From Herpetosiphonaceae bacterium (GTDB lineage: Bacteria; Chloroflexota; Chloroflexia; Chloroflexales; Kallotenuaceae), in assembly GCA_036374795.1 (NCBI GenBank), contig DASUTC010000159.1, positions 1-49,151 of the forward strand: a stretch of DNA of 49,151 bases. The letters run 5' to 3'. The position numbers and the translations under genes are program-made. Of this stretch, positions 25,570-32,007 are shown piece after piece. Numbering within the stretch: position 1 is the first letter of the stretch; the number at the start of each line of letters is the position of its first letter. A model generated the notes under the pieces. That model did no database searches, was not told the DNA's origin, and saw only the letters and a list, made by a program, of their open reading frames with translations.

Positions 25570-26487
25570 TCATCGTCCGGCGATCGTCAGCTCTTGCCCG
25601 GCCATCAGGATGCTGTAGCGCAGGATAAACCCGCCGATCAGCACCAGGATCGCCGGTAGCACCATGTTCTGACCGCCGCGCAGACGCGGCATGAAGCGCA
25701 GCGCCAGCGGCAGCAGCAGCCCGAGCAGGCCGGTGCCGATCAGCAGCAGCAGCCCGAAGCGGCTGCGGATCAGCGGCATGGCGAGCGCGCCCAGCGAGAC
25801 AAAAAAGGCCCCGATCAGCAGCAGCTCCAGCCCGATCGCCAGCGAGTCGGCGGTTTCGAGGCGCTCCAGCGAGCCGCGCGAGGTTGAGCGCCGCCGTAGC
25901 AGCAGCATCGTCGCGATGCCCGTCGAGGCCGCCGATGCCAGGAACAGCGCGCCGATCAGCGGGCTATCGCTCCAGAACGGCTGGTTGGTCGCGGTCAGCA
26001 GCGCGCCGGTGTACGAGGCGATAAAAAAGCCCACGCCCGCCGCCAGCAGCTCGAAGCCCAGGCCGATCGGGCCGCGATGCAGCCAGCGCGCCAGATTGCT
26101 GAAGCGTCCCAGGCCGAAGCGCCGATCCTCGGCCAGCACGCCCAGGAAGGAGAGGAACGAGAGGCCGCCAAAGATGAAGAGCGCCCACGATCCGACCGAC
26201 ATCGGCGACCAGTATTTGAACATCGGCCAGAAGGTTTCCGACTGGATCAGCATGTGCCAGAAGCGCTCAGGCCGTCCCAGGTCCAGAATCAGCAGGATGC
26301 CGCAGATCGCGACCAGCGGAAAGGCCAGATAGTACGCGACCTTCGCCAGCTCGCGATCTTCCTCGGAGCCGATCAGCTCGATCAGCGCGGCCATGAAATA
26401 GGCTCCGGCGGCGATGCCGCCAAGATAAAAGTAGAAGACCAGCCACCATTCCCAGTGCGGCGAGGCGACGATTCGATCGACGGGCAT
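25570..26487 (-). CDS. NrfD/PsrC-like membrane subunit of formate dehydrogenase
   Basis: 305 residues from the ATG at 26487, which shares its first base with the fdhB stop (TAATG) and is preceded by GGAGGTG. Integral membrane protein with eight or more hydrophobic segments, beginning HWEWWLVFYFYLGGIAAGAYFMAAL and including LDLGRPERFWHML, the usual NrfD signature (longer stretches are described, not quoted). It anchors the ferredoxin-like subunit and passes electrons to menaquinone. Unlike E. coli FdnI it carries no evident heme b ligands, so this formate dehydrogenase uses the heme-free NrfD route. The frame upstream of the ATG lies over fdhB and is not used. Confidence 0.9.
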   Translation of the reverse strand: MPVDRIVASPHWEWWLVFYFYLGGIAAGAYFMAALIELIGSEEDRELAKVAYYLAFPLVAICGILLILDLGRPERFWHMLIQSETFWPMFKYWSPMSVGSWALFIFGGLSFLSFLGVLAEDRRFGLGRFSNLARWLHRGPIGLGFELLAAGVGFFIASYTGALLTATNQPFWSDSPLIGALFLASAASTGIATMLLLRRRSTSRGSLERLETADSLAIGLELLLIGAFFVSLGALAMPLIRSRFGLLLLIGTGLLGLLLPLALRFMPRLRGGQNMVLPAILVLIGGFILRYSILMAGQELTIAGR

Positions 26488-27374
26488 TAGCGCACCTCCT
26501 CCCGACGCTCCTCTGCGAAACGATCCATGCGCCGCTTGCGGAAGCTGACCAGCCCGATCACGGCCATTGCCAGCGCGCTGCCGATGCTCCACAGCGACGA
26601 GGGCAGCACGGTGCGGCTCGGCAGCTTGGGATTCGACGGCAGGCTATAGACTTCGGGCTCGTCCATCAGCAGATAGAAGGCGTTGAGGCCGCCCAGGATC
26701 TGCTCGTCGGCACCGTAGAGCCGCGCCTGGGTCAAGCCCTGATCGTGAAGCTGCTTGACGCGGGCGTCGGCGCGCTGCCTCAGCTCCTCGATCGGCCCGA
26801 ACTGGATCGATGCCGTGGGACAGGCTTGCGCGCAGGCCGGTGTCAGGCCGTGCTGCATCCGATCGTAGCACAGCGTGCATTTTTTGGCGGTGCCCTTGCC
26901 CTCGTTCTCCGATCCGCTCATGTGGATCACGCCGAAGGGACAGGCGGCCATACAGTCGCGGCAGCCGTTGCAGACCTGCTGCTGGATATAGACGCTGTCG
27001 AACTCGGTGCGCATGATCGCGCCCGTGGGGCAGACATCCAGGCAGGGCGCGTTGACGCAGTGCTTGCACACATCCGACATCATCAGCCATTGCAGGTTAT
27101 CGCGGCTGGCGTCGGTGGGCTCGTAGCTGGCCTGGCCGTTCAGCTCCGACTTTTCGATGAACCTGACATGTCGCCAGTTGACCGCCGACAGCGAGCCGGT
27201 GTTGTCGTAGCTCATGCCGGTCAGCGCTCGCGTCGCGCCGGGATTGCTGCCGTCCGCCGCTGGCTGCTCGGCAAGCTCGGCCTCCAGATCGTTCCACTGG
27301 TGGCAGGCGACCTGGCACGCCTTACAGCCGATGCAGACCGATGTATCCGTGTAAAAACCCATGGGCTGGCTCAT
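26487..27374 (-). CDS. fdhB: Formate dehydrogenase iron-sulfur subunit
   Basis: 295 residues from the ATG at 27374 (GAGGAG eight bases upstream; an alternative ATG at 27361 would drop four residues). Four [4Fe-4S] clusters are predicted from CIGCKACQVAC (Cys14-24), CKHCVNAPCLDVC, CNGCRDCMAAC and CTLCYDRMQHGLTPAC. Electrons from the catalytic subunit pass through these to the membrane subunit. Near the C-terminus a hydrophobic helix (SLWSIGSALAMAVIGLVSF) followed by RKRR resembles the membrane anchor of FdnH, which supports an outward-facing complex exported with the Tat-dependent catalytic subunit. Confidence 0.93.
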   Translation of the reverse strand: MSQPMGFYTDTSVCIGCKACQVACHQWNDLEAELAEQPAADGSNPGATRALTGMSYDNTGSLSAVNWRHVRFIEKSELNGQASYEPTDASRDNLQWLMMSDVCKHCVNAPCLDVCPTGAIMRTEFDSVYIQQQVCNGCRDCMAACPFGVIHMSGSENEGKGTAKKCTLCYDRMQHGLTPACAQACPTASIQFGPIEELRQRADARVKQLHDQGLTQARLYGADEQILGGLNAFYLLMDEPEVYSLPSNPKLPSRTVLPSSLWSIGSALAMAVIGLVSFRKRRMDRFAEERREEVR

Positions 27375-27389
27375 TGGGCTGCTCCTCGC

Positions 27390-27462
27390 GGAGAACAAGC
27401 CAACAAAGAACAAACAAAGAAGCTGCGTATGTTGTTCTTTGTTCTCTGTTCTTTGTTCTCCT
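27390..27462. repeat. Inverted heptamer element between fdhA and fdhB
   Basis: A left arm (27403-27421) built of ACAAAGAAC units faces a right arm (27435-27456) built of TTCTTTGTTC units. They pair over 9 and 10 bp with a 3-base bulge, around a 13-base loop. The stem would form in the fdhA-fdhB mRNA just after the fdhA stop. Confidence 0.75.
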
Positions 27463-30400
27463 ATTCCGGCTCCACATTACACACAAAGACCTTCGCCTCG
27501 TGGATCTGGACGTTGGGATCGCCGACCATCGCGGCCAGGTTGTTGACGACATCACCTCGCGCGATGCCTTTGTAGCCCCAGTGCCAGGGCATGCCCACCT
27601 GATGCACGATCTTGCCGCCGATGTTGAACGGACGCATCCGCTTGGTCACGAGCGCTTTGGCCCGAATCGTCGCGCGCGGCGTCGAGATTTTGACCATCTG
27701 CGTGTTACGGATGCCCTTCTCCTGCGCCAGCTCCGGGCTGATCTCGACAAACAGCTCAGGCTGAAGCTCGGCCAGCCACGGCACCCACCGGCTCATCGAG
27801 CCGCTCAGGTGATGCTCCGTCAGCCGATAGGTTGACAGAATGTGTGGGTAGGCCGGATCGCCCGTTTTCGCCAGGGCATTGCCCTCGACATCGTAGTGCT
27901 TGTAGACCGGGTTGTTCTGCTGCGTGTAGAGCATATTTTCCACCGGCGACTCGGCAGGCTCGTAGTGGGTCGGGAGCGGCCCGTCGGTCAGGCCCGACGG
28001 CGCGAACAGCCAGGCCTTGCCGTCGGCCTTCATGATGAACGGATCTGCGCCGCTGTGGAAGTCCAGGCCGACACCGTTGGGCTTGGGCTGCGCCGTGGGC
28101 GCTTTCGTCACCGGAAAATCGGGCACCTCGCCCTCGATGCCGGTCCACTTGCCTTTGATGATGTTGCCCTGCGCGTCCCTCGTCTCGCCGTCGGGGTCCC
28201 ACCAGATAAAGCCTTTGGCCGCGCCCGACGGATCGAACTCGCGCGCCAGCCGCGCCTCCTTGGGCCACGGATTGCCCGCCGGATCAGCCGAGGCGCGGTT
28301 GTACATCAGGTGACGGTTGGCAGGCCAGGCGAAGGCCCACTTGGGCGAGATCCAGCGGCCTTTCTCGCGCGACGCCGCGCGGTTAACGCCGTCGGGATTC
28401 GCGTCGTCGGGGGCGTAGATGCCGGAGTAGATCCACCCGCCGCAGGCGGTTGTGCCGTCGTCCTTGAGATCGCCGAAGCCCCTGACCGGCTTGCCCGTGT
28501 CGGTGAAGTAGCCGTTGATCTCTTTGACCACGCGCGTGGCCGATGGCTCGTCTTTGATCCGCCACGGCGCGTTCTCTTCCTCGTCGATGTAGTCCCAGGT
28601 CAGCGCCTTGATCCCGGCGTCGCGCGGATTAGCGCTATCCTGGTACAGCTCCTTGAGCCGCAGCCCCAGATGTACCGTAAACCACAGGTCGGAGCGCGCG
28701 TCCTCAGGCGGATCGACCGCCCGATCGTGCCACTGCACAAGCCGCTGCGTGTTGGTGAACGAGCCGTCCATCTCCGGCACGGCGGCGGCGGGGATGAAGA
28801 AGATCTCGGTCTGGATGCTGGTCGGATCGAGCTTACCCTCGTCGACTTCGGGCGAGTCCTTCCAGAAGCTCGCGGTTTCGGTTTCAAAGATGTCTTTGAC
28901 GACCAGCCACTTAAGCTGTGCCAGCGCCCGCCGCTGAAAGCCCGCGTTCTGCCCGCCGACCGCCGGGTTCTGGCCCATAGCGAAGAAGCCTTCCATCTTG
29001 CCCTCGGCCATGTGGACGAACATCGGCATGTGCGAGTGGTCGCCGACGATCTTGGGCTGCCAGGCATAGCCGTAGTCACTGTCGGCGGTCGCGGCGTCGC
29101 CGTACCAGGCCTTGAGCAGCGAAACCATAAACTTGGGCATGTTCGACCAGTAGGCGGTCGGTGTTACCTCAGTTTCAAGGTAGTCGCTCAGGGTATCGTG
29201 CTTTTTGAGCGCGCTGGGCGTGTTCAGGTAGCCCGGCAGCAGGTTGTAGAGCGTCGGAATATCGGTCGATCCCTGGATCGTGGCGTGGCCGCGCAGCGCG
29301 AGAATCCCGCCGCCGGGTCGCCCGATGTTGCCGAGCAGCGATTGCAGGATCGTTGCGGCGCGAATGATCTGCACGCCAACGGTATGCTGTGTCCAGCCCA
29401 CGGCATAGACCACCATGCCGGTACGATCCGGCCCTGAGTTCTGCGTGAGCGTCTCGGCAACCTTGAGAAACACCGCCTGGGGACAGCCCGTTGCCTGCTC
29501 GACCATCTCCGGCGTGTAGCGGGCGTAGTGCCGCTTCAAGATCTGAAAGACGCAGTTCTCGTCCTGAAGCGTCAGGTCTTGCCGGGGCCGCCCGCCGACG
29601 AGCTTGCCCACGCGCGCCGAGAACGACTGTGACTCATCCTGCGCGGGCGTAGGCTGATTCTGGCCCTCCGGCGCGTCGGTCTGATACTTCCAGGTAGCCG
29701 AGTCGTACCTGCGGCCTTCGGCGTTGTACCCGGAGAAGAGTCCGTCCAGCTCCTCGGCATCCTGGTAGGCCGGATCGATCAGCGTGGCCGCGTTGGTGTA
29801 GTTGACGACATAATCACGGAAATATGTGTCGCTGGTCAGGATATAGTTGATCAGGCCGCCCAGGAACACGATGTCCGATCCGGCGCGGATCGGCGCGTGA
29901 ATGTCGGCCATCGCCGAGGTGCGCGTAAAGCGCGGATCGACATGGATCATCTTGGCTCCGCGCGCCTTGCCTTTCATCGCCCAGCGAAAGCCCACCGGGT
30001 GGCACTCGGCGAAGTTGGAGCCCATGATCATGATGAAGTCGGAGTTTTGCAGATCTTGCTGAAACGTCGTAGCGCCGCCACGACCATAGCTTGAGCCCAG
30101 ACCGGGCACAGTGCTAGAGTGTCATATGCGCGCCTGATTTTCGATGAACACGATGCCCAGCGCACGCATCAGCTTGAGATGCACGTAGTTCCACTCGTTG
30201 TCCATCGTCGCGCCGCCCAGCGAGCCGATCGCCAGCGTGTGGTTGACCTGCTTCTGCACCTGATTGCCGTCTTTGTCGGTGGTGCTGAAGCTCTCGGCAA
30301 AGGTGCGGTCGCGCGTCTCTTTGACAAGCTGCGCGATGCGCTCCATCGCCCAGTCGAGCGGCTTCTCTTCCCAGTCGGTCGCTCCCGGCGCGCGATATTT

Positions 30401-30748
30401 GACCCTGGTCGAGCGCAGCGGGTTGACGGCCAGTTGCAGCGAAGCCGCGCCCTTGGGGCAGAGATTTCCCTCAGAGATCGGCGAGTCGGGGTTGCCCTCG
30501 ATGTTGATGATCGTATCCTGGCCGGTAGCCGCGTCTTTTTTGACGCTGATCAGTGTGCCGCAGCCGACCGCGCAGTAGGGGCAGATGCTCGGCACGTCGC
30601 GCGCGTCGGCGATCTTGAGCTTCTGGGCCAGGCTTTTGGCTGCGGTCAGATCTGCGCCGAACGCCAGAATGCCGCCGAGCGCGAAGCCGCCCGCTGCCGC
30701 ACCGCGCAAGAGATCGCGTCGGCTGACGGATTTGCTCAGAGGGTCCAT
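27461..30748 (-). CDS. fdhA: Selenocysteine-containing formate dehydrogenase catalytic subunit
   Basis: One gene of 1095 residues with UGA at 30124-30122 read as selenocysteine 209; automatic calling gives two frames (end of first at 30122, second from 30109). The frame joins as ENQARI-U-HSSTVPGLGSSYG and matches the FdnG/FdoG active-site region. Start ATG 30748: Tat signal SRRDLLRG at 9-16, hydrophobic stretch, then [4Fe-4S] ligands Cys56, Cys59, Cys63 (ICPYCAVGCG) and Cys97 (NLCPKGA). Molybdopterin-binding domains fill the remainder; the C-terminal domain includes NTQMVKISTPRATI. It oxidises formate to CO2 at a bis-MGD Mo/W centre, exported by Tat. SECIS follows the UGA. Promoter and palindrome lie about 95-130 bases upstream of the ATG. 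Confidence 0.95.
30087..30116 (-). promoter_or_regulatory. SECIS element of fdhA
   Basis: Counting U of UGA as 1: lower stem UAGC (9-12) with GCUA (35-38), U15-A33 and G16-C32, unpaired U17, upper stem GCCC (18-21) with GGGC (27-30), loop GGUCU (22-26; 30103-30099). The loop and U17 have the same numbering as in E. coli fdhF, where SelB contacts them. Confidence 0.9.
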
Positions 30749-30840
30749 ACGGGTATCCCTTTCTGTTCCTGAACGATGCAGGATGCCGATCGACTGAAGG
30801 AAAAGTGGGACGTGGTGCTGCAATAAATGTGCCGGGGACG

Positions 30841-30855
30841 CTACGATGATCGTAG
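30841..30855. promoter_or_regulatory. Palindrome CTACGAT-G-ATCGTAG over the fdhA -10
   Basis: Perfect 7-bp arms around one base. It covers the -10 hexamer of the fdhA promoter, so a protein bound here would block transcription. Inference: repressor operator. Confidence 0.55.
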
Positions 30856-30877
30856 TACGTTTGTGGGAGCGTGTCAA
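30849..30877 (-). promoter_or_regulatory. Promoter of the fdh operon
   Basis: TTGACA (30877-30872, perfect), a 17-base spacer, TACGAT (30854-30849). Predicted start near 30842 with a leader of about 95 bases to the fdhA ATG. Confidence 0.65.
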
Positions 30878-30906
30878 CTCGTCTGGTGCGTCGAATAGGC
30901 GAACGC

Positions 30907-32007
30907 TTAAACGTTCCCGACCCTGGCACGCAGGCTCGTATCTTCCGCGTGGCACTCAGGCACATGCACCAGCGGCACCTCCTCGCCGAGCGGGATGCTG
31001 ACGCGCACCTCGGTGCCCTCGCCGGGCGCGCTATCGATCTGGAGCGTGCCGCCGACCAGATTAGCGCGCTCCTGCATGCCGAAGATCCCGACGCCCTGGC
31101 CGTGCGGCGTTGGCCCGAGCACCGCCCGATCGAAGCCGCGCCCATCGTCCTCGATGCGCGCCGTCACCACGTCGGCGCGGCTCAAGTCCAGGTCGATCTC
31201 GACGTACGAGGCGGCGGCGTACTTCAAGATATTGGTGATCGTCTCCTGAATGATGCGATAGAGCGCCGTCTCGATCGGCGGCGGCAGGCGACGGCCCTCG
31301 CCGCGCATCTGGAGATCGACGCGCAGGCCCGCCGCTTCCAGACGATGCTGCGCCTGCCAGCGCAGCGCGGCGGCCAGTCCAAGGTCGTCCAGCAGCGAGG
31401 GCCGCAGATCGGCGATGATCGCGCGGACGCCGCCCAGCGTGCGATCGACGACCTCACGGACGCGGCCCAGCCCGCCTAGCAGCGAGGGCGTCATCTGATC
31501 GGCCTCCGTGCTCAGCACCGTGTCGATATAGATGCCGAGCGTCGCCAGCGATTGCGCCGTCTCGTCGTGCAGCTCGCGCGCGATCCGCCGACGCTCCTCC
31601 TCCTGCGCCGAGATCACCTGCTGGGTCAGTTGCTCGGTCAGACGGCGCGAGCGCTCAAGCGCCAGCTTGTCCTCCTGCAGGCGGTCGAGCATGGTGTTGA
31701 AGGTATGCGCCAGCCGTGCCAGATTCGGCTCGCCGTGCCTGATTTCTTCGGCGCGCACGCTCAGATCGCCACCGGCCACCAGCTCGGAGACGGTTTGCAG
31801 CACCAGCAGAGGCCGCAGCGCCAGCCGCAGCAGGACATAGTTGGCGGCGATGCTCAGCAGCAGCCCCAGGCTGGCGAAGCTCACGGTCAGCGCGATGCTC
31901 GACTGTTGCGCCAGCGTGCGGGTAATGGTGGTCCCGGCGGCAGCGCCCAGAAAGACGATCGCGCTGTTCACGGCTAGAATTTGATACAGCAGCGGCCATT
32001 TACGCAT
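30907..32007 (-). CDS. LiaS/NarX-like sensor histidine kinase
   Basis: 366 residues. Two N-terminal membrane helices (about 8-28 and 36-64) with a very short external loop, HAMP region (about 62-115), then a coiled HisKA_3 segment with ARELHDETAQSL (His147) and an ATPase domain with ETITNILKYA, EDDGRGFD and GIFGMQERANLVGG. This is the kinase class that pairs with NarL/LuxR-type response regulators; none is in the window. The short loop suggests sensing within the membrane or by another protein. The gene ends 30 bases before the -35 of the fdh operon on the same strand, so a part in formate dehydrogenase control is possible by context. No strong ribosome site was seen at the ATG. Confidence 0.9.
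   Translation of the reverse strand: MRKWPLLYQILAVNSAIVFLGAAAGTTITRTLAQQSSIALTVSFASLGLLLSIAANYVLLRLALRPLLVLQTVSELVAGGDLSVRAEEIRHGEPNLARLAHTFNTMLDRLQEDKLALERSRRLTEQLTQQVISAQEEERRRIARELHDETAQSLATLGIYIDTVLSTEADQMTPSLLGGLGRVREVVDRTLGGVRAIIADLRPSLLDDLGLAAALRWQAQHRLEAAGLRVDLQMRGEGRRLPPPIETALYRIIQETITNILKYAAASYVEIDLDLSRADVVTARIEDDGRGFDRAVLGPTPHGQGVGIFGMQERANLVGGTLQIDSAPGEGTEVRVSIPLGEEVPLVHVPECHAEDTSLRARVGNV

Follow-up and report, generated by a model that had tools for sequence, protein, structure and literature searches.

A UGA-interrupted formate dehydrogenase gene of a Chloroflexota bacterium is probably a functional selenoprotein gene

Two open reading frames are listed on the minus strand (30122–30955 and 27461–30109) of a 49,151-nt stretch of contig DASUTC010000159.1 from a Herpetosiphonaceae bacterium, the whole of which is called the window below, and the question is whether they are separate genes, pieces of a damaged gene, or one gene with an in-frame UGA read as selenocysteine (Sec). 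Taken together, the two frames constitute one formate dehydrogenase (FDH) alpha-subunit gene. Counted from the ATG at 30748, it spans 1,096 codons. Besides the terminal TAG (codon 1096), the frame is broken only once, by TGA at codon 209, around which the read-through translation is ENQARI-U-HSSTVPGLG. The features considered here are as follows.

27461–30748, minus strand: FDH alpha subunit (FDH-N/FdnG type), 1,095 aa, with predicted Sec at 209, assigned by TIGR01553, NF041513, Pfam and PDB alignments.
30122–30124, minus strand: UGA codon 209, predicted to be read as selenocysteine; the sole internal stop, opposite the modified X in 1h0h and kept in relatives.
30079–30124, minus strand: bSECIS element, comprised of the UGA and a hairpin with stem 18–21/27–30, loop GGUCU and U17 beside the stem, based on pairing and covariation.
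26487–27375, minus strand: FdhB-type iron-sulphur subunit with 4Fe-4S ferredoxin domains (Pfam Fer4_11 and others) and a C-terminal hydrophobic segment.
25570–26487, minus strand: NrfD-type membrane quinone subunit (Pfam NrfD, 116.6 bits).
30907–32007, minus strand: sensor histidine kinase (HAMP, HisKA_3 and HATPase_c, by Pfam), just upstream of the FDH alpha gene.

The read-through product matches TIGR01553 with 1056.6 bits (cut-off 814.2), residues 8–1093 of 1095 being covered, and NF041513 with 1433.8 bits (cut-off 1400). It contains the Pfam domains Molybdop_Fe4S4, Molybdopterin and Molydop_binding (dinucleotide-binding), the Tat motif SRRDLL and the 4Fe-4S cysteine motif CPYCAVGC...CPKG, and is alignable with the solved FDH structures 1h0h and 1kqf. 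In the 1h0h alignment, codon 209 faces the modified residue X of EHQARI-X-HSATV, which is selenocysteine in that enzyme. The original prediction had joined the two frames, placed UGA 209 at the active-site position (ENQARI-U-H) and described the gene as otherwise complete, and our results agree with it on all three points, given the intact frame with a single internal stop, the alignment with X, and the presence of both motifs within a full-length TIGR01553 match. Judging from sequence, we regard it as nearly certain that 27461–30748 is a single, functional gene of a respiratory, Tat-exported, Sec-containing alpha subunit of the FDH-N type.

Reading UGA as Sec requires the corresponding machinery, and the original prediction had held that the organism must possess it, naming a genome without selB and tRNA-Sec as evidence to the contrary. 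The host genome is a draft of 7.75 Mb in 373 contigs, with estimated completeness of 100% and contamination of 4.9%. No tRNA gene was found within the window, in line with the earlier remark that it lacks tRNA-Sec, and the sel genes are located on other contigs. Both tRNA-Sec (67.7 bits, above the Rfam cut-off, anticodon UCA) and SelB with its winged-helix domains are encoded on the same contig, C279, while SelA is encoded on C270, and SelD, above the cut-off, on C18 (L018, G000:C18:27476–28402), so that tRNA-Sec, selB, selA and selD are all present. The selD gene has one in-frame UGA at CAG-U-ASK, the catalytic position, and SelD of this host is itself a probable selenoprotein. A second FDH (L169, G000:C345:13329–16355), 59% identical to the window gene, has its own UGA and the same SECIS; counting SelD and both FDHs, the probable selenoproteins of the host number at least three. 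Weaker tRNA-Sec matches (about 50 bits) were considered as additional tRNA-Sec genes; the six read with ARAGORN proved to be tRNA-Ser.

Mis-binned contamination was considered as the origin of the sel genes. It is unlikely, because the host tRNA-Sec is identical to the copy in a separate congeneric genome, and SelB matches reach 84, 75 and 75% identity elsewhere in the genus (three genomes) and 70 and 61% in the family (two genomes). In one family member assembled in four contigs (G005), FDH, tRNA-Sec, SelB and SelA are all encoded on a single contig, C2.

The genus and family are represented by five further genomes, and each of these has an orthologue of the window gene, with 74–87% identity and exactly one TGA, at the same codon. 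Close relatives had been proposed as the place to look for a sequence error at 30122–30124, and all of them retain the UGA, with no sign of an error. The active-site codon is TGA in nearly all relatives read, and TGC or TGT at seven loci (six distinct sequences); such exchange of Sec and Cys is expected in the FDH family (PMC1794560).

Two genomes deviate from the general pattern. One of them (G055; L117 and L185 at G055:C245:15600–15930) has a cysteine FDH and no SelA or SelB matches, with tRNA-Sec present according to ARAGORN (Rfam 55 bits), as if Sec decoding had been lost recently and the tRNA left behind. The other (G080, 98% complete, 7% contamination) has an FDH with UGA (L116, G080:C1074) and no SelA, SelB or tRNA-Sec matches; its FDH contig may be mis-binned.

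Immediately after UGA 209 we observe the SECIS hairpin. When U of the UGA is numbered 1, GGUCU occupies positions 22–26, and U17 immediately precedes the stem 18–21/27–30. Our count confirms the positions given in the original prediction, and they agree with the numbering of E. coli fdhF. Single-sequence folding is not informative here, as the fold energy is unremarkable (z about –1), with 15% of synonymous shuffles folding equally well; loop and stem are jointly present in approximately 1% of such shuffles. Therefore, comparative covariation was used, and it provides the strong evidence. Among 34 distinct homologues, pairing in the apical stem holds for 98.5% of cells, both sides have changed in 18 cells, and the covariation score is 0.380 compared to 0.080 in shuffles; none of 500 shuffles equals the observed paired fraction or covariation score. 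As a control, the partner strand was shifted by one base, which reduces pairing to about 60%. The pair 18–30 is GC in 17 homologues, CG in 12, GU in two, and AU and UA in one each; the pair 21–27 is CG in 29, GC in three, and UA in one. The stem changes fall on the third bases of Val, Pro, Leu and Gly codons and are synonymous, and hence protein-level constraint cannot explain them.

The GGUCU loop is retained. In 40 of 43 homologues with UGA, GGT is the codon for its Gly, while GGT encodes just 6 of 98 Gly residues in the window gene overall, and it is found at this place in none of the six distinct Cys homologues. The hairpin is degraded in relatives with cysteine codons. Rfam at the gathering threshold gave no match within the window. 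Besides the window site and that of the second FDH, a search of the genome with the SECIS pattern retrieved an unrelated one on C37; the control pattern gave one match.

In a draft genome of 373 contigs, one might suspect that the UGA is an error of sequencing or assembly, or that it arose by nonsense mutation as the gene decays. Against this stand the identical UGA codon in dozens of independent genomes, the intact frame beyond it, and the conserved, covarying SECIS. As UGA is conserved, SECIS covaries, and the genome encodes both the Sec machinery and a second Sec-FDH, we consider sequencing error and pseudogene excluded, with a negligible probability attached to either. Taken literally, mechanical ORF calling, which does yield two frames, would imply that an N-terminal Fe-S fragment and a protein of 882 aa, initiated from GTG at 30109, are made separately. 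This GTG, however, lies inside the SECIS and corresponds to the conserved Val of STVPGLG in the fused enzyme, the break coincides with the catalytic residue, and the cysteine homologues (L119–L121) are single, uninterrupted proteins, making separate products extremely improbable. Reassignment or readthrough of UGA as Trp or Cys in this host, in favour of which we found nothing, deserves hardly any credence, given the full Sec machinery in the genome, the SECIS directly after the UGA, and the placement of UGA at known Sec positions in both FDH and SelD. The window gene is, therefore, regarded as genuine and complete, and as probably encoding a functional selenoprotein.

If codon 209 is read as Sec, SelB carrying Sec-tRNA-Sec would bind the hairpin right after the UGA, so that Sec is inserted instead of termination. 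The Sec residue would then ligate Mo or W of the bis-MGD cofactor, with formate oxidized to CO2, and electrons would pass from the 4Fe-4S cluster of the alpha subunit via the ferredoxin-like beta subunit to the NrfD-type membrane subunit and further to quinone. The sequence shows directly that there is one gene, that its UGA occupies the catalytic position, that the hairpin is conserved and that the Sec machinery is complete, while Sec insertion itself, the identity of the metal, the direction of the reaction and the electron acceptor are inferred.

Directly downstream of the alpha-subunit gene, on the same strand, are genes of the partner Fe-S and membrane subunits. The listed fdhB frame starts with TTG at 27413, the likely start being ATG at 27375, and the likely ATG of the NrfD-type gene at 26487 overlaps the fdhB stop. 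The sensor histidine kinase encoded upstream is a possible candidate for an FDH regulator.

Compared to known systems, a close counterpart is E. coli FdnG/FdoG, of formate dehydrogenases N and O (1kqf), likewise a Tat-exported Mo-bisMGD alpha subunit with Sec and one 4Fe-4S cluster, a TIGR01553 equivalog, in which UGA is immediately followed by SECIS, as in the window gene; the window protein is approximately 80 residues longer. The membrane subunits differ: that of E. coli FDH-N, FdnI, is a di-haem cytochrome b, whereas the window operon encodes an NrfD-type protein. Tentatively, and with somewhat more doubt than confidence, we suggest that electrons of this Sec-FDH exit via the NrfD-type subunit rather than cytochrome b, which would constitute a respiratory variant with different energy coupling, maybe common in Chloroflexia. 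The best match among solved structures is the W-dependent FDH of Desulfovibrio gigas (1h0h), with EHQARI-Sec-HSATV corresponding to ENQARI-Sec-HSSTV in the window gene; the latter, unlike the D. gigas enzyme, has a membrane subunit encoded alongside.

The original prediction had assumed that selenoproteins are not usual in this lineage, and this is contradicted by the phylum-wide data. SelB is present in 322 of 399 sampled Chloroflexota genomes (E <= 1e-65), that is about 80%, and 319 of these matches exceed the curated cut-off. Among 100 nearer relatives, 75 have SelB and 76 have tRNA-Sec matches; as the best matches in two of the latter (G016 and G031) are tRNA-Ser, no more than 74 of them can be genuine. 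Sec-FDH is carried by single-cell genomes of Anaerolineales, and Dehalococcoidales are said to have many such annotations (PMC4959059); these and the orthologues described here represent the same enzyme with the same UGA, only the host order or family being different. FdhA is the most widespread selenoprotein of bacteria: a 2006 survey reported it for 67 of 75 species that decode Sec (PMC1794560), and in 2016 FDH alpha and SelD once more had the widest distribution (PMC5029168).

The window gene is thus a further case of a very well-known selenoprotein, Sec-FDH, which is already published for Chloroflexi, and its correct annotation is one selenoprotein, not two fragments. Most of the sampled Chloroflexota decode Sec, in keeping with the established association of FdhA and SelD with this trait.
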